Shown in pieces: positions 19,359 to 29,389 of a stretch of DNA of 33,868 nucleotides. The stretch spans positions 1 through 33,868 of the forward strand of contig JAFZFX010000016.1 of the NCBI GenBank assembly GCA_017555695.1. Direction: 5' to 3'. The position numbers were made by a program, and so were the translations under genes. Every line of letters begins with the position of its first letter. The stretch's first letter is position 1. This stretch comes from Alistipes sp. (GTDB lineage: Bacteria; Bacteroidota; Bacteroidia; Bacteroidales; Rikenellaceae). Below the pieces are notes generated by a model, which was given only the letters and a program-made list of their open reading frames with translations, searched no databases and had not been told where the DNA came from.

Positions 19359-21713
19359 ATGAAACAATTATCTTTATTGCTACTCGCTGTAGCACTATTG
19401 TGCGCGCAGGTATCTATGGCTGCATCACTCCGCGGCCGAGTAATCAACTCTAAAAATGAGCCCATTGGCTACGCTACCGTAGTAGCCTTGGCCGATTCGA
19501 CACAAATGGCTGGTGCTACGACCGACGAGAAGGGAGCATTTGCACTGACTTTGACCGATGGCGACTACACTATCGTTGTCGATTTCGTTGGTTACACCAC
19601 ATTCGAGCGCAAGATGAGCGTTAGTGGAAACACCGACATTGGCGACATCACACTCAAAGAGTCAGCCACTGACATCGGCGAGGTGATAGTCAAAGCTCAG
19701 CACATACGCCGCGAGGCCGACCGCTTTGTAGTAGATGTGGCCAACTCAGATATGGCATTGGGTAAGGATGGCGAAGAGTTGTTGCGCCAATCGCCTGGTG
19801 TGTGGGTCAAAGATGACGACATCTCAATCAACGGTGCAAGCGGTACAAAGGTCTATATCAACGAGCGCGAGGTGAAACTCTCGGGCGCGCAGTTAGTGCG
19901 CTATATTAAGTCACTGCGTGCCGACAACATCAGCAAAATTGAGATTGTGCCGCAGACGGGCGCCGACTACGATGCCAACTCTTCGGGTGGAGTAATCAAA
20001 ATCACACTCAAGCGCCGACTCGACAACGGCGTAATGGGCTCAGTGTCGATGTACTCAAATCAGAGCAAACTGGGCCACGACTACAACCCATACGCAAATA
20101 TCTCTGCTATTGTCGGGAAGTTCGACCTACAGGCCTATGGAGGTTACTACACAGACAAAACACAATTTAACACTAACGAGAACACACGCTACTCTACGCT
20201 CGGTGCAGAGATGAATTCAAAGTCAAGAGAGATAAATAGATTCCAATCGGGAAATATGTCGCTCTCGGCCATATATCAGATTAACACCAAGCACAGCGTA
20301 GGACTTTCGGGTGGATATTACAACAACCATGACAGAGGCGACCTGAACTCCAACACATCGTTTACGACTGCGAAGTCGGAGCGATTGAGCAAGAGCCGTT
20401 TCCTGCGCGACGGCAACAACCCAACATATTGGAGTACATTCAACTACATATTCAAGAGTGATTCGTTAGGCTCGACACTCAAGTTCATTGCCGACTACAC
20501 ATTAGACGATAGCAACACACTCAACGACAACGCTACAAGCATAAGCGATGGCGGCCTCTACACCGACTCACTCTATTACGACAAGAATAACGCCCTATTC
20601 CGCGTAGCTACAGCATCACTCGCCCGTGACAGAGTATTCTCTCCAAAATTTCGATTGAGATATGGTGCAAAATATACATACAACGAGATTAATGCCGATG
20701 CCGAGTATCGTTATTTACAGCAGGATGTGTGGATGCCGTCGAAGGTAGAGGACTACGACATTTCGTACCGCGAAAATATCAGTGCTATGTATGTGACCGC
20801 ATCGTCTCACCTTGGCCGTTTCTCGGCTGTTGTAGGTCTGCGTGGTGAGTACACAAATGTGCAGGGCAAGGGAGAGAATATTGAGCAGAACTATCTCTCG
20901 CTATTCCCAAATGCCAACTTCTCGTACGCATTAGATAAGGAGGGCAAGCACTCGATAGTGGCACAATACTCACGCACTATACGCCGTCCGAGTTTTTGGA
21001 ACCTGACCCCTACGCGACGACTTCTTTCGGACTACACCTATCAGACGGGAAACCCGATGCTCGACCCATCATATTACAACACATTCTCGCTGACGGGAGT
21101 TATCGCACACAAGTACACTGTTACACTTTCGACGACACTATCAACCGACCAGATTCAGCAGATGATTGTGACCGACGCCAACGACCCAAAGATGATGAAC
21201 ATCACGCACATCAATATGCCAAGGCTCAACCAATACACATTGAGCGCAAGCCTGCCGATAAATATGACTAAGTGGTGGGACTGGAATATAAATATGACGG
21301 GCGTCGTTATGGAGCAGCAGATCACTCCGACAAGCGAGCGCACAACGCACCCGATGTATCAGTACTCTACGCAGATGACATTCAGATTACCCAAGAAGTT
21401 CTTTATCGACCTTTCTGCATATGGCACAAGCCGAGCGACGGTAAGCAACGCTACGGTAGAGGCTCAGAACAGAATGAACATTACACTGAAAAAGCAGATA
21501 AAGGAGTCGTGGACACTATCTTGTATGTTCAACGACATCTTCACACAAGGGCAGGAGTTGACCTTTGAGCAAGAGGATGCTGTAAGAAATATGTATAACA
21601 AAAGTTTCAGCAACTCGTTCAGAGTTCGCATTGGTGCTACTTGGAATTTCAAGAGCGGAAAGCAATTCAACACAAAGAGCATCGACCGCGGTGAGAGCGA
21701 ATCGAGATTATAG
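19359..21713 (+). CDS. TonB-receptor-like outer-membrane beta-barrel protein
   Basis: The 784-residue protein has a signal peptide (about 1-21). A carboxypeptidase-regulatory-like beta domain (about 22-105, LRGRVINSKNEPIGYATVVA) follows, then a plug-like region (about 112-215, DISINGASGTKVYINEREV, SSGGVIKITLKRR). A long barrel fills the rest and fits the OMP_b-brl_3 type, with many alternating strands such as RFSAVVGLRGEYTNVQG. No SusD-like lipoprotein is adjacent, so this is not a classic glycan-utilisation pair. The transported ligand is unknown. It has its own promoter and terminator. Confidence 0.88.
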   Translation: MKQLSLLLLAVALLCAQVSMAASLRGRVINSKNEPIGYATVVALADSTQMAGATTDEKGAFALTLTDGDYTIVVDFVGYTTFERKMSVSGNTDIGDITLKESATDIGEVIVKAQHIRREADRFVVDVANSDMALGKDGEELLRQSPGVWVKDDDISINGASGTKVYINEREVKLSGAQLVRYIKSLRADNISKIEIVPQTGADYDANSSGGVIKITLKRRLDNGVMGSVSMYSNQSKLGHDYNPYANISAIVGKFDLQAYGGYYTDKTQFNTNENTRYSTLGAEMNSKSREINRFQSGNMSLSAIYQINTKHSVGLSGGYYNNHDRGDLNSNTSFTTAKSERLSKSRFLRDGNNPTYWSTFNYIFKSDSLGSTLKFIADYTLDDSNTLNDNATSISDGGLYTDSLYYDKNNALFRVATASLARDRVFSPKFRLRYGAKYTYNEINADAEYRYLQQDVWMPSKVEDYDISYRENISAMYVTASSHLGRFSAVVGLRGEYTNVQGKGENIEQNYLSLFPNANFSYALDKEGKHSIVAQYSRTIRRPSFWNLTPTRRLLSDYTYQTGNPMLDPSYYNTFSLTGVIAHKYTVTLSTTLSTDQIQQMIVTDANDPKMMNITHINMPRLNQYTLSASLPINMTKWWDWNINMTGVVMEQQITPTSERTTHPMYQYSTQMTFRLPKKFFIDLSAYGTSRATVSNATVEAQNRMNITLKKQIKESWTLSCMFNDIFTQGQELTFEQEDAVRNMYNKSFSNSFRVRIGATWNFKSGKQFNTKSIDRGESESRL

Positions 21714-21790: not shown

Positions 21791-24712
21791 TTAGCGGCCA
21801 CCCATCGGGGGACCCATAGGACCACCCATAGGAGGACCCTGACGGCCTGCGCTCTTGCTGCTACCATCCTGGATACCATAGTCTGAGAGCACGCGTGAGC
21901 CCTTCTTGCCGAATACGCGCAAGTTATAAGTGAACTGCACGGTGAAGTAACGGCCGATAACGCTGTTCCAAGAGTTTGCGGTAAAGCCCGAACCTGTAGA
22001 GCGAGAGAACGATGTATTCTGGTTGAAGATATCGTTCACACCAACCATAAGCTCACCCAGCTGGCTCTTGAAGAGCTTTTTACCGAGGTAGGCGTTACAG
22101 AGAGTGTAAGACTCGTTATAGTCGTTTGTGAAACCGATGTTCTGGATATAGTTAGCCGAAGCTGTGAAAGTAAAGCCCTTCCAGAAAACAGTCTTGATAG
22201 AACCCGAAGCCGAGTGGTTGAAGTACTCGTTCTTACCACCGCGAGCAGCCAGAGAGTTCTCGGCCTGGTTGTAGGCACCATTCCAAGAGAGCGTAAAGTC
22301 GATATTCTCAGAGATGTTGCTACCCAACACTACGCCCGCATCGTAACCCATATTGCTGGCCATATTTCTCTCACCATTAACCAATGAGGGTGTCTTCGAG
22401 TAGTTCACACCACCGCTAAGGTTAAGGTTACACTTCATAAAGTTCAAAGGCAAACCATAGTTGATATGAGTACGGAGGCTCATAAAACCATCGACATTGT
22501 CGGTTGTGGTGTACTGGATGGGAGTAGAGCCAACCTCGTCGATGATATTCTGCGGGATGTTAGCACCGGTATAGATGCTCTGCGAAATGTAGTCCTGAGT
22601 GCTCTGGAACGAGAACATCCACATAAATGTACGACCCTTCTCCAAGTTGGTGAAGTTGTAGTGGAAGTTCACACGGTGAGAGTATGCAGGATTCAGGTTC
22701 TCGTTACCGTTTGACACATACTGCGTATCAGAGATATCGAGAATGCTGTTCAACTGATTCACACGAGGATTGTTGGTATCTGACATCACGAACAGACGCA
22801 GAGAGTGCTGCTTGTTGATGTTCAGGTTACCCATCATAAAGTATGTGAAGTCGTTGTAAGAGCGCTTAACGGGCTGTGTCTGCAGAGCCTGCACCTGACC
22901 ATCGAGGGTAGAATACTGATAGTTAAGGCTAACAACAAATGTATTACGCTCCTTGGCATAGTTAAAACCAGGACCTACGCGGTGAGTCGTATAATCGCTT
23001 GTGTAGCGGTTAGACAAGGCGGGGTCGAGGATGCCGTTGGTGTAGCTGTCATCGTTGCCATAGTTGAATGTGTTACGCTGGCTATCCTGGCCTGTATAGT
23101 TGAAATCATAACGGAGTGTAACCTGCGAGAACTCAGCTACGGGCTCAGAGTAGTTAACGGCAGCACCTACGCCCAAGTTGCTTGAGTTAGAGTCGTTGCT
23201 CAAGTAACGCAAATAGGGGGAGTAGCCCTCGCCGTCGGGGTTAGCGATGGTCTCCTGATTAGAGAATGAGCGTGACTCGTTGTTGTTGTCGCGATAGTTC
23301 ACGCGGCCATCAACGGTAACCATACGACCCTTGTCGCTGAGCTTCAAACGATACTGCAAGAACTCCGAGAAGTTGTAACCACCATTGTCGCCCTCATTTC
23401 CGCTGCAGATGATATTGTAGAGGTTCTCGCCCACCTGCAAACCGTTTGTACGGCTGAAGGGGTCGTAAGACTGCAAGCTGAAGCCAGTACGCGACATAAT
23501 AGACTGATTCTCTGAGATGCGCCAATCCAGACGGGCATTCAAGCGGTGGTTGTAGTTCTGGTTATCAGACTGACCACTCTGCTCAAGTGTACCCAAATCC
23601 TGAAGAGGAGCCTCATACCAGCGGATAAGTTGTGAGAGGTTGCGAGTACGGGTACGGTTGAAGAAGTAGCTTGCCTGCAACTTAACCTTATCCTTCTCGC
23701 CCCAAGAGGCTGTATAGTTCAAACCGATAGCACCAACCTTGGCAACACCACTCTGGGGACGGGTCATGAACTGGCCTACGCCACCACCCATACCGCCGCC
23801 CATACCGCCGCCACCGCCACCAGTGACGCCGATAATATCCTCGAATGAGAAGTGCTGCTGATTAATATTGTTGAGCAAACCAATTGCAGAGAGACGGTGT
23901 GCGCCTGTGAAGTAGTTTACATTACCACCGAAGAGATACTTGTTCTTGTTGGTAATATCATCGGTCTCGGGCTGGTAGCCATAGCCACCATAGAGCTTAC
24001 CGAATACACCCTGACGCATACTCTCGTGAGTAACGATGTTCAAAGCCTTGTAGCTGTCGCCATCGTCACGACCCGAGAACTCGGCATTATCGCTGAGCTT
24101 ATTGTAAACCTCAACGCTCTTTACAGCCTGTGCGGGCAGTGAGTTAAGCGCTGTAGATACATCCTCGCCGAAGAACTCCTTGCCATCTACAAAGATCTTC
24201 TGGATGGTCTCACCCTGCGCCTCAACCGAGCCGTTTGTGATGGTAATACCGGGCATCTTCTTCAACAGACCCTCGACATCGGCATCGTTAGCCACCTTGA
24301 AGGCACCAGCGTTGTAGCTCACCGTATCACCCTTCTGCGACGCACGGATTGCTTGCACCTCCTTGACTACGGTGTTAATCTGGGTTGCACTCTCCTTCAG
24401 AGCGATAGTACCCAAATTCTTCTTGGCTGCGCTAATCTGAATCTCCATCTTGTAGTCCTCATAACCCAAGAACGACACAATAGCGTTGTACTTGCCATAA
24501 GGCTTGGCGGGAGTAGTCAGTTTACCGTCGATGTCGGTAGTGTAGTGTTTCTTATCCTCGGCATTCGATGCAGGAGCCATCTCCAGCACTGCGCCGATAA
24601 CGGGCTCCTTGGTCTTCTCATCGACAATAGTCAATGAAATCTGACCCGCACGCTGTGCAAAAGTGACGATGCTCGTCAAAAGCAGAATCGTCGTAAAAAT
24701 CAGTTTTTTCAT
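21791..24712 (-). CDS. Outer-membrane beta-barrel protein with Gly/Met-rich loop
   Basis: The 973-residue protein has a signal peptide (1-19). A carboxypeptidase-regulatory-like domain (about 22-108, ending FLGYEDYKMEIQ) follows, then a plug domain (about 118-228, with DGKEFFGEDVSTALNSLPAQAVKSVEVYNK), then a barrel. It resembles the OMP_b-brl/TonB-receptor superfamily. A run GGGGGGMGGGMGGGVG lies near 298-313, probably a flexible loop. The C-terminus ends in a Gly/Pro/Met-rich tail (GPPMGGPMGPPMGGR) after the last strand, unusual because barrels normally end at an aromatic residue. It is downstream of a Spy-like protein with a similar tail and of a two-component system, which suggests co-regulation. 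The ligand is unknown. Confidence 0.88.
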   Translation of the reverse strand: MKKLIFTTILLLTSIVTFAQRAGQISLTIVDEKTKEPVIGAVLEMAPASNAEDKKHYTTDIDGKLTTPAKPYGKYNAIVSFLGYEDYKMEIQISAAKKNLGTIALKESATQINTVVKEVQAIRASQKGDTVSYNAGAFKVANDADVEGLLKKMPGITITNGSVEAQGETIQKIFVDGKEFFGEDVSTALNSLPAQAVKSVEVYNKLSDNAEFSGRDDGDSYKALNIVTHESMRQGVFGKLYGGYGYQPETDDITNKNKYLFGGNVNYFTGAHRLSAIGLLNNINQQHFSFEDIIGVTGGGGGGMGGGMGGGVGQFMTRPQSGVAKVGAIGLNYTASWGEKDKVKLQASYFFNRTRTRNLSQLIRWYEAPLQDLGTLEQSGQSDNQNYNHRLNARLDWRISENQSIMSRTGFSLQSYDPFSRTNGLQVGENLYNIICSGNEGDNGGYNFSEFLQYRLKLSDKGRMVTVDGRVNYRDNNNESRSFSNQETIANPDGEGYSPYLRYLSNDSNSSNLGVGAAVNYSEPVAEFSQVTLRYDFNYTGQDSQRNTFNYGNDDSYTNGILDPALSNRYTSDYTTHRVGPGFNYAKERNTFVVSLNYQYSTLDGQVQALQTQPVKRSYNDFTYFMMGNLNINKQHSLRLFVMSDTNNPRVNQLNSILDISDTQYVSNGNENLNPAYSHRVNFHYNFTNLEKGRTFMWMFSFQSTQDYISQSIYTGANIPQNIIDEVGSTPIQYTTTDNVDGFMSLRTHINYGLPLNFMKCNLNLSGGVNYSKTPSLVNGERNMASNMGYDAGVVLGSNISENIDFTLSWNGAYNQAENSLAARGGKNEYFNHSASGSIKTVFWKGFTFTASANYIQNIGFTNDYNESYTLCNAYLGKKLFKSQLGELMVGVNDIFNQNTSFSRSTGSGFTANSWNSVIGRYFTVQFTYNLRVFGKKGSRVLSDYGIQDGSSKSAGRQGPPMGGPMGPPMGGR

Positions 24713-24806: not shown

Positions 24807-24855
24807 CACTTTTATTTTGGAGTTATGGCTTTTGAGGGGGTGAAATGACAAAATC

Positions 24856-24882
24856 GGGGTGCCAATCTACGATTGACACCCC
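24856..24882 (-). terminator. Hairpin between the Spy-like gene and the outer-membrane protein gene
   Basis: A 12-bp stem with one G:U pair and a 3-nt loop. On the minus strand only a weak U-rich tract (GATTTTGTC) follows, so it may be a leaky terminator or 3' stabiliser. Confidence 0.55.
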
Positions 24883-24970
24883 TTCGAAAAACAACCTAAT
24901 TTCCATTACTGCCCATGAATGGATCTTTGAGATTCTGAAAAGATAGGACAAATTAGAACCTCATTCTTTA

Positions 24971-25522
24971 TTAGAAGCCGCCGAAACCGCCAGGGCCACC
25001 CTGTCCACCAGGACCACCAGGACCGCCAAAGCCTCCGCCGTTCTGCATACGCTCCTGCATCTGCTGACGCATACGCATCTCCTGCTGCTTCTTAAGTTTC
25101 TGCCACTTCTTATACTGTGCTTCAGTCAAAATTCCCTTCATTGCCTTATCCTCGGCAGCCTCGCGAGCCTTCTGCTCCTCCTGACGCTGCTTCATAAATG
25201 CCTCGCGATCGGCATCGCTCATATTCATAAAGTCGGGACGCTGACCCTGACCCTGCTGACCACGCTGTGCGCGCATCTCCTCACGCTGCTTCTGCTGCTC
25301 CTTCATACGATTGAGGTTATAATCATAGAGCTTCTTCTGCTGCTCCTCTGAGAGATCGAGGCTCTTTGCATAACGCTCAGTCTGGCTCTTTGCCATCTGC
25401 TCGGGAGTCATACGCTGACGCTGGGGACGCTCACCCTGCTGGGGAGCCTGAGGTGCCTGTGCCATTGCAACGCCGCTAAATGTGAGCGCGATGGCTACTG
25501 CTAAAACTTTAAGTGCTTTCAT
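24971..25522 (-). CDS. Spy/CpxP-like periplasmic protein (DUF4890-like)
   Basis: I chose the ATG at 25522, giving 183 residues with a normal signal peptide (MKALKVLAVAIALTFSGVAMAQ). An in-frame TTG at 25552 would add ten polar residues before it and is unlikely. The mature protein is helical, highly charged and Gln/Met-rich (MTPEQMAKSQTERYAKSL, LDLSEEQQKKLYDYN, ILTEAQYKKWQKLKKQ). The SLDLSEEQ...LTEAQ...W layout is that of Spy/CpxP-like and DUF4890 proteins. The last ~25 residues are Gly/Pro-rich (NGGGFGGPGGPGGQGG). Spy and CpxP act as periplasmic chaperones or stress sensors in E. coli; here that role is inferred. It lies between a two-component system and a barrel with similar Gly/Met stretches. 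Confidence 0.82.
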   Translation of the reverse strand: MKALKVLAVAIALTFSGVAMAQAPQAPQQGERPQRQRMTPEQMAKSQTERYAKSLDLSEEQQKKLYDYNLNRMKEQQKQREEMRAQRGQQGQGQRPDFMNMSDADREAFMKQRQEEQKAREAAEDKAMKGILTEAQYKKWQKLKKQQEMRMRQQMQERMQNGGGFGGPGGPGGQGGPGGFGGF

Positions 25523-25599
25523 AGTTTTGTATAATTTTTTGTTAGTACTCAAATTCTTGTTGCTTCTTCCGAAGTCAAAAGGCCTTCACCTTGATATTA

Positions 25600-26554: not shown

Positions 26555-27937
26555 TTATTGGCCATCGGGGCGCTGCAGAGGCAGGCGCACGATGAATTCG
26601 GTGTCAGTATCCTTGATTTCGATATCGCGACCCGTAATGAGCTGCCAGCGGCTACGCAGATTCTTCAATCCGATACCAGTCGAAGGCTCAGGCTCGAGCT
26701 TTGGACTCTTCACATTCGATACCACAAGGGTCGAATCCTCGGTACGAATAGATATATGGAACGGATGCTTGCGCGTGATAGCATTGTGCTTGACGGCATT
26801 ACCAATCAGCGGTTGCATAGTGAGTGCGGGAAGTGTCCAGCTGAGGTATTGCGAATCGATCTCTATATCGAAGAATAGTTTGTCGGCATAGCGCACCTTG
26901 AAGAGTTCGCCATAGGCGTGCGTAAACTCCATCTCCTCGGCAAGTGTCGTGCGGGTATTCTGTCCGTTCTGGATGATGTAGCGGAAGGTGTACGAGAGCT
27001 GGTCGATATAAGCCAAAGCCTTCTCCTCGTTATTATCGCGCACCAACATCGAAAGCGAGTTAAGCGAATTGAAGAAGAAGTGAGGGCTTATCTGACCCAT
27101 CAGCAGGTTGTACTGCGTCTGGAGGTTCTCGTTGCGCAGACGCTCGTTCTCAAGCTGCATCTTCTGCTGTTCGAACAACATTCCGTAGATACGACCGTAG
27201 AGGATAGCCACGATAACCGCAACCAAACACTTCATAATCACCAGATAATCAACCATAATCTTCGGCTCGTTCTGGAAAATCATCATCACGCGACCTCCCA
27301 ACTTCCAGTTGATAAATGGCGCAAAGAAGTAGCAAGCAAAGGCCGCCGCAATGGCGATAACACAGCGAATCAGATAGCGGCGAGTAGTGAAGTTGTTTAC
27401 ATCGAAACGCGCCGTCATAACGGTCAGCAGCAGAAGCGTCAGCGTAAAATAGTAGAGCATCTGCCAAGTCATATCCTGATTACGACGCGGACGGTCATAG
27501 ACGGGCGGAGCGGGAATCTCATTACCATTCTGCACAATCACCTCGTTCAAGCTCGGATTTGCATTAACCTGCGAGGGGTGAGGCGGGTGAATGGTGCAAC
27601 GAATCTTGTCGCCATCCTGCAGTCGGTAGCTCCACACCTTACGATTGCTGACAAAGACACTGTCAATCTGCAGCGGCTCTGCCATCTCGGGCATATCGAG
27701 CGTAGTCACCTGCTCGCTGATGATATAGCCGTAACCATCGGGCGAGAGGTGCAGCACACCCTCAATTTCGATATGAGGGCGCGACATTGGCTGACTGCTG
27801 ATATTTGTACTGCTCGAACTCTCTCGTTGCTCGGCAATCATCACTAAGATGTACGAGAAGTTTACCGCTAAAGTAATAACTATAGCAATCAGTGTGTTGA
27901 TGACGGTAGTAGACCGTTTGTGTCGTAACATATTCAT
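26555..27937 (-). CDS. LytS-type histidine kinase with Rho-like OB-fold sensor domain
   Basis: The 460-residue protein has a first membrane helix (14-36) after a basic N-terminus. An extracytoplasmic segment (about 38-156) follows, then helices near 157-175, 188-206 and 229-250. A coiled coil follows, then a His_kinase (PF06580) domain with the phosphoacceptor H286 in QISPHFFFNSLNSL. The ATPase domain has N-box NAVKHN and GIGLKNLRSR. Residues 57-140 strongly resemble the cold-shock-like RNA-binding domain of Rho: GVLHLSPDGYGYI, then VFVSNRK, LQDGDKI and HPPHP in the same order and spacing. Orientation puts this domain outside the cytoplasm. Its ligand is unknown. The response regulator follows in the same direction. 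Kinase assignment is firm; the sensor-domain identity is my inference. Confidence 0.93.
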   Translation of the reverse strand: MNMLRHKRSTTVINTLIAIVITLAVNFSYILVMIAEQRESSSSTNISSQPMSRPHIEIEGVLHLSPDGYGYIISEQVTTLDMPEMAEPLQIDSVFVSNRKVWSYRLQDGDKIRCTIHPPHPSQVNANPSLNEVIVQNGNEIPAPPVYDRPRRNQDMTWQMLYYFTLTLLLLTVMTARFDVNNFTTRRYLIRCVIAIAAAFACYFFAPFINWKLGGRVMMIFQNEPKIMVDYLVIMKCLVAVIVAILYGRIYGMLFEQQKMQLENERLRNENLQTQYNLLMGQISPHFFFNSLNSLSMLVRDNNEEKALAYIDQLSYTFRYIIQNGQNTRTTLAEEMEFTHAYGELFKVRYADKLFFDIEIDSQYLSWTLPALTMQPLIGNAVKHNAITRKHPFHISIRTEDSTLVVSNVKSPKLEPEPSTGIGLKNLRSRWQLITGRDIEIKDTDTEFIVRLPLQRPDGQ

Positions 27938-28024: not shown

Positions 28025-28558
28025 CTACTGCTCCTCGGTGTACCACGACGCGTAGATCTGATAGTCGCGGGCGGTACGCTTGACGATATGCTCACGCTGC
28101 TCGGGCGTAATCTCCTTTACCTTCTTGGCGGGGACACCTGCATATACCGAGTTGGGCTCAAGCTGCGCTCCCGACAGAACAAGTGCGTTGGCAGCAATGA
28201 TACAACCCTCGGGAACTACGGCATTATCCAACACCGTTGCGCCCATACCAATCAGTACGCTATCGCCGATTGTGGCGCCGTGGATTGTAGCGTTGTGGCC
28301 CACCGACACATCGTTGCCAATGTGAGTCTGCGAGGGCTTGGGCGACTTGTCGTATAAGGTATGTATTACTGCTCCGTCCTGGATGTTGGTGCGGTCGCCG
28401 ATAGTGATGGTGTTCACATCACCGCGCAACACTGCGCCATACCATATCGAACAATCCTTACCGATAGTCACATCGCCAATAATCACTGCCGTTTCGGCCA
28501 AAAATGTATTCTCTCCAATCTGAGGCGTACAACCTCTAACTTTTCTAATCAGTGCCAT
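28025..28558 (-). CDS. Gamma-class carbonic anhydrase-like hexapeptide protein
   Basis: This 177-residue left-handed beta-helix has clear hexapeptide repeats (IIGDVTIGKDCSIWYGAVLRGDV) and the three zinc-binding histidines of the gamma class at H66 (VIHTLYD), H88 and H93 (VGHNATIHG). The short form without the acidic loop is like CaiE/PaaY/YrdA proteins, many of which show weak or no carbonic anhydrase activity. The C-terminal helix ends YQIYASWYTEEQ. It follows mazG after 23 bp and is probably in the same transcript. Catalytic role is uncertain. Confidence 0.88.
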   Translation of the reverse strand: MALIRKVRGCTPQIGENTFLAETAVIIGDVTIGKDCSIWYGAVLRGDVNTITIGDRTNIQDGAVIHTLYDKSPKPSQTHIGNDVSVGHNATIHGATIGDSVLIGMGATVLDNAVVPEGCIIAANALVLSGAQLEPNSVYAGVPAKKVKEITPEQREHIVKRTARDYQIYASWYTEEQ

Positions 28559-28581: not shown

Positions 28582-29355
28582 TTACTCATCTTTCTTTGCG
28601 TTACGCCAAAGTACATCCAACTCTTCGGCTGTCATCTCCGTGAAAAGTTTTCCGTCGGCCTCGGCCTCCATATGCTGGAAGCGAGAAATGAATTTCTTGT
28701 TGCATCTCTCCAGCGCCATCTCGGGGTCGATGCCGTAGAGTCGGCACATATTAATCAGCGCAAAGAACAAATCGCCCACCTCCTCTGTGGTGCGTTCGTG
28801 GTTGCCAGCAGCCATCTCGACCTCAATCTCGGCAATCTCCTCTTTGACCTTTGCCCAAATATCCTCCTTCTGCTCCCAGTCGAAGCCCGCGCTTGCAGCC
28901 TTCTCTCCAATGCGCACAGCCTTGACCATAGCAGGAAGTGAGCGGGGCACACCTCCCAAAATTCCGCCCTGACGCTTCTTCTTACGGAGTTTTAACTCCT
29001 CCCAATTCTTCATCACCTCGTCGGGTGTATCAGCGTGGATGTCGCTATAGACATGTGGGTGGCGGTAGATAAGTTTGTCGCACTCGGCATCGGCTACATC
29101 GCCAAAGTCGAACTGACCCTGCTCTTCGCCGAGTTTCGAGTAGAAAACCACATGCAGGAGCAGGTCGCCCAACTCCTCCTTAATACCCTCCATATTGCCG
29201 TCGGCAATGGCATCGACCAACTCATAGGTCTCCTCTATAGTATTGTTACGCAGCGACTCGAAAGTCTGCTCACGATCCCACGGGCATTTCTCGCGCAGGG
29301 TATCCATCACCTCCAAAAGTCGTGCTGCAGCAGCAAGTTTCTTCTGATAATCCAT
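28582..29355 (-). CDS. mazG: Nucleoside triphosphate pyrophosphohydrolase MazG
   Basis: I chose the ATG at 29355 (257 residues, MDYQKKLAAAARLLEVMDTL). The TTG at 29364 lies nine bases upstream and looks less likely. Two MazG domains are present: the first has CPWDREQTFESLRNNTIEETYELVDAI with the EExxE metal motif, and the second has EEIAEIEVEM...TEEVGDLFFALIN. The enzyme hydrolyses NTPs and dNTPs to monophosphates and pyrophosphate, cleaning nucleotide pools or lowering ppGpp stress effects. Its length matches E. coli MazG. It shares an inverted-repeat promoter region with the GH20 gene. Confidence 0.95.
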   Translation of the reverse strand: MDYQKKLAAAARLLEVMDTLREKCPWDREQTFESLRNNTIEETYELVDAIADGNMEGIKEELGDLLLHVVFYSKLGEEQGQFDFGDVADAECDKLIYRHPHVYSDIHADTPDEVMKNWEELKLRKKKRQGGILGGVPRSLPAMVKAVRIGEKAASAGFDWEQKEDIWAKVKEEIAEIEVEMAAGNHERTTEEVGDLFFALINMCRLYGIDPEMALERCNKKFISRFQHMEAEADGKLFTEMTAEELDVLWRNAKKDE

Positions 29356-29389
29356 ATCGTACAATGTCTCGAATAAAATATTATATCCA

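Follow-up and report, generated by a model that had tools for sequence, protein, structure and literature searches.

Kinase gene and membrane layout

The locus described here raises the question of what a domain resembling the RNA-binding part of Rho, a conserved cytoplasmic domain, is doing on the outer side of the inner membrane in a sensor histidine kinase. The kinase gene lies in a 33,868-nucleotide stretch of Alistipes sp. (contig JAFZFX010000016.1 of assembly GCA_017555695.1), referred to below as the window. A sequence-only reading had placed a Rho-like OB domain at 27500..27770, in the outer loop of the kinase, and PF07497 together with a profile of related sensors confirmed that this likeness is real. 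The explanation that we consider probable is that a LytS-type kinase gained an OB input domain derived from Rho. The kinase and its predicted parts are as follows (membrane helices from a hydrophobicity scan, kinase core from a Pfam scan):

26555..27937, minus strand: sensor histidine kinase of the LytS type with a putatively Rho-derived OB domain in its first extracytoplasmic loop; open reading frame (ORF) of 460 amino acids (aa); PF06580, E = 1.5e-21; PF07497, E = 3.2e-5
27836..27892, minus strand: transmembrane helix 1 (TM1), residues ~16-34, running from inside to outside
27530..27772, minus strand: OB domain, residues 56-136 (strands 56-64, 70-80, 89-96, 111-117 and 129-136; helix 98-103)
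27416..27472, minus strand: TM2, residues ~156-174, running from outside to inside
27308..27364, minus strand: TM3, residues ~192-210
27173..27229, minus strand: TM4, residues ~237-255, leading into the cytoplasmic kinase
26876..27115, minus strand: His_kinase core (PF06580), residues 275-354

Residue 286, within the motif PHFFFN, is probably the phospho-accepting histidine. H286, N380, K383, H384, G421 and G423, which represent the His, N box and G box of the LytS-type core, were invariant in all 30 aligned kinases. Neither the 5TM-5TMR_LYT membrane domain nor a Rho ATPase/ATP-synthase family was among the seven Pfam families found for the window kinase at E <= 10, and TIGR00767, which has a cut-off of 509 bits, scored 15.6.

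A simple hydrophobicity scan, purpose-made rather than a published predictor, was applied to 155 domain-bearing loci (among which one gene can occur repeatedly), and in 154 of them it gave four helices, with a charged N-terminus and the OB domain between TM1 and TM2. The TM1-TM2 loop of these loci has a median length of 108 aa, and the TM2-TM3 loop is richer in Lys/Arg residues (mean 4.0) than the TM3-TM4 loop (2.3). Among 50 domain-free loci, four helices were found in 43, three in 5 and five in 2. The kinase end of histidine kinases is cytoplasmic, and since the number of helices is even, the OB domain is predicted to lie outside the inner membrane, as the first reading had proposed. Because of this even number and of the charges in the loops, a cytoplasmic placement was rejected.

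Likeness of the loop domain to Rho

The Rho-like motifs originally pointed out occupy residues 60-142 of the kinase (window positions 27512-27760). When a 123-aa segment containing the sensor was searched alone, PF07497 (Rho_RNA_bind) was the sole Pfam family at E <= 10 (E = 1.8e-6, 28.1 bits, over the curated cut-off of 27). For the whole kinase it was the second family (residues 59-122, E = 3.2e-5). At E <= 0.01 the window kinase matched two NCBIfam families, both of them Rho and both far under their whole-protein cut-offs. The last quarter of the PF07497 model (positions 56-73 of 73) was not aligned to the kinase segment, and the single window sequence recovered 11 Rho chains from the PDB at E values of only 0.06-0.95. 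Two whole-protein PF07497 scores count against a derivation from Rho: those of the window kinase (24.1 bits) and of locus L179 from genus g200 (19.9 bits) both fall under the cut-off of 27, that of locus L188 being 44 bits. Taken alone, the window sequence would thus be a suggestive lead and no proof.

A Rho origin is firmer because the matches extend over the family. The genus kinase search supplied its 30 best loci, the window kinase among them, for an alignment of the sensor parts (A1), and all 30 matched PF07497 at E <= 1 (best 4.8e-10). When the A1 profile was run against the PDB, 13 distinct Rho sequences came on top (E = 7.3e-11 to 1.6e-6), followed by designed ankyrin-type proteins from E = 0.0017 and by RNase II at 0.28. 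A hidden Markov model (HMM) built from Rho rows only gave 10.0-46.8 bits with 92 distinct kinase copies, a sample picked for matching the A1 profile. The highest score was 8.3 bits among 4600 shuffled sequences (3384 scored) and 1.9 bits among reversed copies (82 scored). A chance resemblance is ruled out, all 92 copies (chosen through the A1 profile) having outscored these controls. The same HMM matched all members of the first set of 30 loci. Homology of the loop domain to the OB domain of Rho is supported by these comparisons.

Of 295 genomes of the order, 171 contained a match to the sensor segment as a single sequence (E <= 1e-3). With the A1 profile and E <= 1e-4, 294 of the 296 genomes searched in the phylum gave a match, and 289 gave exactly one. 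Among the sampled loci, 58 non-kinase ORFs matched A1, of which 54 carried Rho motifs and 4 were RNase R-like.

Another possible donor is a cold-shock-type OB protein of the RNase R kind. The N-terminal OB domain of RNase R and RNase II (PF08206, OB_RNB) is like the sensor in the first half of the OB fold, and is less similar to it than the Rho domain. PF08206 was matched by 20 of the 30 sensors at E <= 1 (best 1.7e-6), i.e. by fewer members and less well than PF07497. With equal 33-row profiles Rho scored higher in 88 of the 92 kinase copies and RNase R in 4 (in 8 with the first, six-row RNase R profile, which was replaced). In profile-profile comparisons the 92 kinase domains gave a probability of 99.2, an E value of 1e-18 and a score of 102 with Rho, versus 97.0, 2e-10 and 56 with RNase R. 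Both of these comparisons are tilted towards Rho, since similarity to the sensor decided which Rho rows were taken, and the RNase R rows came from their Pfam model. The Pfam member counts and the search of A1 against the PDB are free of this bias, and in the latter the best RNase II chain stands against 13 Rho sequences below 2e-6. Moreover, the stretch past the barrel, up to an Asn-Gly pair, aligns to Rho. RNase R as the source is judged very unlikely on the Pfam, PDB and profile comparisons together, even with its 20 matched sensors, its lead in a few copies and the row choice counted in its favour.

Fold and conserved residues

In a predicted model of the whole kinase, on which the fold comparison with the PDB was based, the domain forms a five-stranded barrel like that of Rho, with a helix after strand 3. 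The OB strand order is present, and the model supports the assignment of the loop domain to the OB fold. Each of the three outcomes that would have overturned the first reading was thus looked for, and none was observed: a profile hit was obtained, the strand order is that of an OB fold, and the predicted topology is extracytoplasmic.

Residues were numbered as in E. coli Rho, and the 92 kinase copies were aligned accordingly. The positions F62, F64 and Y80 stay occupied by aromatic residues or His. At F62, 45 copies have Tyr, 36 His and 1 Phe, and the other 10 have a gap. All 82 copies scored at F64 have Tyr there (92 of 92 in the A1-based alignment), and the Y80 position is Tyr in 76, Phe in 15 and His in 1. 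R66 and D78 are each invariant in 54 Rho rows. In the kinases Arg was found at position 66 in only 2 of the 75 copies scored (mostly V/I/L), and position 78 holds Ser in 87 copies and the Asp of Rho in 2, so that D78 is replaced in 90 of 92. The loop E108-R109-Y110, which we take to contain contact residues of Rho, is gapped or carries a kinase-specific Ala-His/Asn-Pro motif. On average, the domain and the Rho rows alike carry a slightly negative net charge.

The median ratio of non-synonymous to synonymous substitution rates (dN/dS) was 0.32 for the domain and 0.19 for the kinase core (519 non-independent pairs). The OB domain is under purifying selection and evolves faster than the core.

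Distribution and gene neighbourhood

All 101 genomes of the genus, many of them incomplete, contained a kinase match at E <= 1e-10 (paralogues counted), and the closest relatives of the window kinase share 82% identity over the full length. A kinase-type domain was located in 92 of them (domain profile, E <= 6.6e-17). As for the remainder, (i) G067 has a second domain-profile match below listing strength, (ii) G026, G044, G079 and G035 have a single match of Rho strength (the first three being ORFs of 513-597 aa), and (iii) G008, G012, G042 and G086 gave no match to a Rho-type domain at E <= 1e-4, Rho itself included, which could reflect incomplete assemblies or a diverged or absent Rho.

A scan of named genomes gave 199 relatives, of which the best 80 were used. 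Their records are all labelled Alistipes, Rikenellaceae or Bacteroidales and include A. montrealensis, A. muris and A. senegalensis. The Rho-only HMM matched 77 of these 80 loci at E <= 0.01 (all but L133, L149 and L167) and 69 at 1e-3. When the loci from L171 on were split by their A1 match, it recognized all 15 with the domain, some of them from Alistipes, and none of the 33 without it.

The genes that define the surroundings of the kinase are listed below, together with the number of the 80 Alistipes loci in which a homologue occurs within 6 kb (counts that include loci at contig ends):

25672..26448, minus strand: LytTR response regulator (PF00072 and PF04397, E = 9.2e-20); 78 loci
24971..25552, minus strand: DUF4890 protein (PF16231, E = 2.2e-10); 42 loci
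21791..24712, minus strand: outer-membrane beta-barrel protein with a CarboxypepD_reg-like domain (PF14905, E = 2.6e-25); 66 loci
28025..28558, minus strand: hexapeptide-repeat protein (PF00132), presumably gamma-carbonic-anhydrase-like, used as a synteny marker; 78 loci
28582..29364, minus strand: MazG (PF03819, E = 1e-35), used as a synteny marker; 74 loci

A GH20 homologue was found in 51 of the 80 loci, and the gene order in the examples read was GH20, MazG, hexapeptide protein, kinase, regulator, (DUF4890), barrel. In most loci read the kinase and regulator genes are adjacent, whereas in L091 (9365-11791), L173 and L177 they are separated by about 2.3-2.4 kb, where an insertion may have occurred. 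In the window, the barrel gene lies tail to tail with another PF14905 gene (19359-21713, plus strand), a homologue of which is found within 6 kb of the kinase in just 1 of the 80 loci.

Origin of the domain

Comparison of 20 regions from other genera of the family revealed the same gene slot with and without the domain. In 12 of them (genera g2, g186, g187, g192 and g202) MazG, the hexapeptide gene and the regulator flank a kinase without the OB domain, the TM1-TM2 loop of which has about 20 aa. Four regions (g199 and g200) contain a kinase with the domain, and one (L178) a more distant kinase. The kinase of genus g196, sampled without wide flanks, is also domain-free. At 1e-20 there was no kinase match in 21 of 150 genomes and in 4 of 22 genera of the family. 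Outside the family, the matches listed at E <= 1e-40 among 198 genomes of the order all start at model position 137 (of 446) or later and so leave the OB part uncovered.

The remaining three regions (L182, L185 and L189, all from g2) carry unrelated, helical-looking or low-complexity inserts in the TM1-TM2 loop, for which no Pfam match above the cut-off was obtained. It looks as if this loop repeatedly accepts new stretches.

In a tree of the kinase core, computed without the OB columns, the domain-bearing rows (23 of 59) formed one clade with a support of 99/96, corresponding to one change. Rows with less than 80% of the core columns, duplicates and the distant kinase L178 were left out of the trees, and Alistipes was subsampled (15 of the 59 rows). 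A quick tree of 66 rows agreed with it (Shimodaira-Hasegawa-like approximate likelihood ratio test, SH-aLRT, 92). Most simply, a single insertion took place in the common ancestor of the Alistipes, g199 and g200 kinases. Since the domain is absent outside the family, this change is read as a gain and not a loss, the direction given by the tree being weakened by stray outgroup rows.

Three observations speak against so simple a history: (i) two rows of the five-row outgroup were out of place in the careful kinase tree, (ii) this tree differs in kind from the species tree, and (iii) in the g199 regions (L180, L181 and L188) neither MazG nor the hexapeptide gene was found near the domain-bearing kinase, the regulator and barrel genes being present. 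The kinase gene may have been transferred between genera.

In an 81-column tree of the domain itself, 17 kinase rows formed one clade (97/87). A tree joining the kinase rows with ten Rho rows of Rikenellaceae was neither rejected nor shown to be correct by the approximately unbiased test (p-AU = 0.30). In several Alistipes the rho gene lies near the kinase locus, at about 3 kb (L118 and L126) or 5 kb (G080 and G069). In G007, G043, G050, G054, G015, G474, G484 and G063 it is farther away: 12-35 kb in five of these genomes, 62-65 kb in two near-complete ones and 271 kb in one. The short distances would fit a local copy of the rho domain, and broken assemblies favour short distances.

Possible role of the domain

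Homology, fold, topology, a single origin, the domain-free orthologues in the same slot and purifying selection are supported by computation. Sensing, signal transfer, a regulon and a ligand other than Rho-type C-rich RNA are inferred. In the scheme that we propose, the OB domain that makes up the primary RNA-binding site of Rho would have been copied and inserted, most simply once, into the short TM1-TM2 loop of a four-helix LytS-type kinase. This domain would serve as the input module of a kinase that had been functional before its arrival. A ligand or partner protein would bind at or near the old nucleic-acid face, outside the membrane, and binding would shift TM1/TM2 and alter the phosphorylation of the adjacent LytTR regulator, probably the partner of the kinase judging from its position and domains. 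The regulator would in turn probably control nearby genes, e.g. those of the DUF4890 protein and the outer-membrane barrel, which are the likeliest targets because they are neighbours of the kinase. The barrel gene is a possible member of the regulon, and the DUF4890 protein a possible target or partner of the system.

The domain most likely now senses something other than the usual RNA of Rho. The sequence-only reading had suggested an OB fold recruited for another ligand, and this fits the residue data, in which the aromatics are kept and R66 and D78 replaced. A small ligand, or a glycan or peptide, is tentatively placed first among the candidates.

Alternatively, the domain may bind a partner protein instead of a small ligand; candidates include the DUF4890 protein and the portion of the barrel protein that faces the periplasm. 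The regulator, DUF4890 and barrel genes adjoin the kinase, and the faster but constrained evolution of the domain would fit partner binding. However, the barrel and regulator also occur beside domain-free kinases, so the partnership of the genes is independent of the domain, and we regard this alternative as somewhat unlikely.

Retained binding of single-stranded nucleic acid, with the kinase sensing extracellular or periplasmic RNA, DNA or oligonucleotides, appears improbable. The fold is that of the Rho domain, and the conserved residues at the F62, F64 and Y80 positions fit such a function and weigh against a changed ligand: one study describes the Rho mutants F62S and Y80C as extremely defective in RNA binding (PMC4150792), and Y80 is kept as Tyr or Phe in 91 of the 92 copies. 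According to another, R66, D78 and Y80 are among six Rho residues that recognise pyrimidines (PMC9908020); of the kinase copies, 73 of 75 have a replacement at R66 and 90 of 92 at D78. The same study notes that Thermus Rho differs at R66, D78 and Y80, yet still prefers C-rich RNA (PMC9908020), which calls for caution over the loss of R66 and D78 and is a further point against the reading of a changed ligand. The extended site of Rho is described in a third paper (PMC11018626). Replacement of the E108-R109-Y110 loop and the slightly negative charge, the latter shared with the Rho rows, also argue against nucleic-acid binding. That a domain taken from Rho was turned into an external nucleic-acid receptor of a two-component system in gut Alistipes is a shade less probable still.

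It is similarly improbable that the inserted domain is a passive spacer, the four-helix membrane part being the sensor as in the domain-free orthologues. Those orthologues keep the same neighbours and presumably work, and some g2 kinases have unrelated inserts in the same loop. Nevertheless, 92 of 101 genomes have retained the domain, with conserved motifs and under purifying selection.

RNA-like element near the barrel gene

An alignment made for regulator binding sites upstream of the barrel gene yielded no direct repeat that could be settled on, and revealed an RNA-like element between the DUF4890 and barrel genes (window 24835-24928, minus strand), present also in loci L091-L109 and L111-L114. 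A near-invariant segment of about 31 nucleotides (GGGCAGTAATGGAAATTAGGTTGTTTTTCGG) directly precedes a terminator-like hairpin, in which 9 pairs are changed on both sides among 18 aligned sequences. The element occurs in a single copy in the genome, its pattern was found in 27 of 303 loci, and Rfam gave no match at this site. It could be a small RNA from a 3' untranslated region or an attenuator.

Comparison with known systems

The kinase shares its PF06580 core and neighbouring LytTR regulator gene with the LytS/LytTR systems (LytS, BtsS and YpdA). It differs from them in its membrane part: LytS, BtsS and YpdA have the 5TM-5TMR_LYT domain (BtsS is described as a seven-helix pyruvate receptor; PMC10653868), whereas the kinase studied here has four predicted helices, with the OB domain in the outer loop that joins the first two.

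With the cold-shock-type RNA-binding OB domain of Rho (PF07497; PDB 1a62 and 1pv4) the sensor shares the sequence profile, the strand order with a helix after strand 3, aromatic or His residues at the stacking positions and the post-barrel segment up to Asn-Gly. Unlike Rho, it has no ATPase, is predicted to be extracytoplasmic within a kinase, and has replacements at R66, D78 and E108-R109-Y110. It allows one to ask what a Rho-type OB face recognises once the cytosine-reading residues are gone.

The domain-free orthologues of g2, g186, g187, g192, g196 and g202 are the same kinase with a loop of about 20 aa and no OB domain. Versions from before and after the change therefore survive in one gene slot of related genera, which makes the gain of a sensor domain testable, and the system, kept by most Alistipes, provides a lead on a two-component system of common gut bacteria. 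Among the open-licence articles listed from PubMed Central (PMC), none described, in its title or the start of its abstract, a histidine kinase with a sensor of the Rho or OB type. The LytS/LytTR parts of the system are known. Its novelty lies in the sensor, an OB domain of Rho ancestry on the outer side of the membrane, and thus in a traceable move of a conserved cytoplasmic RNA-binding domain across the membrane into a receptor.
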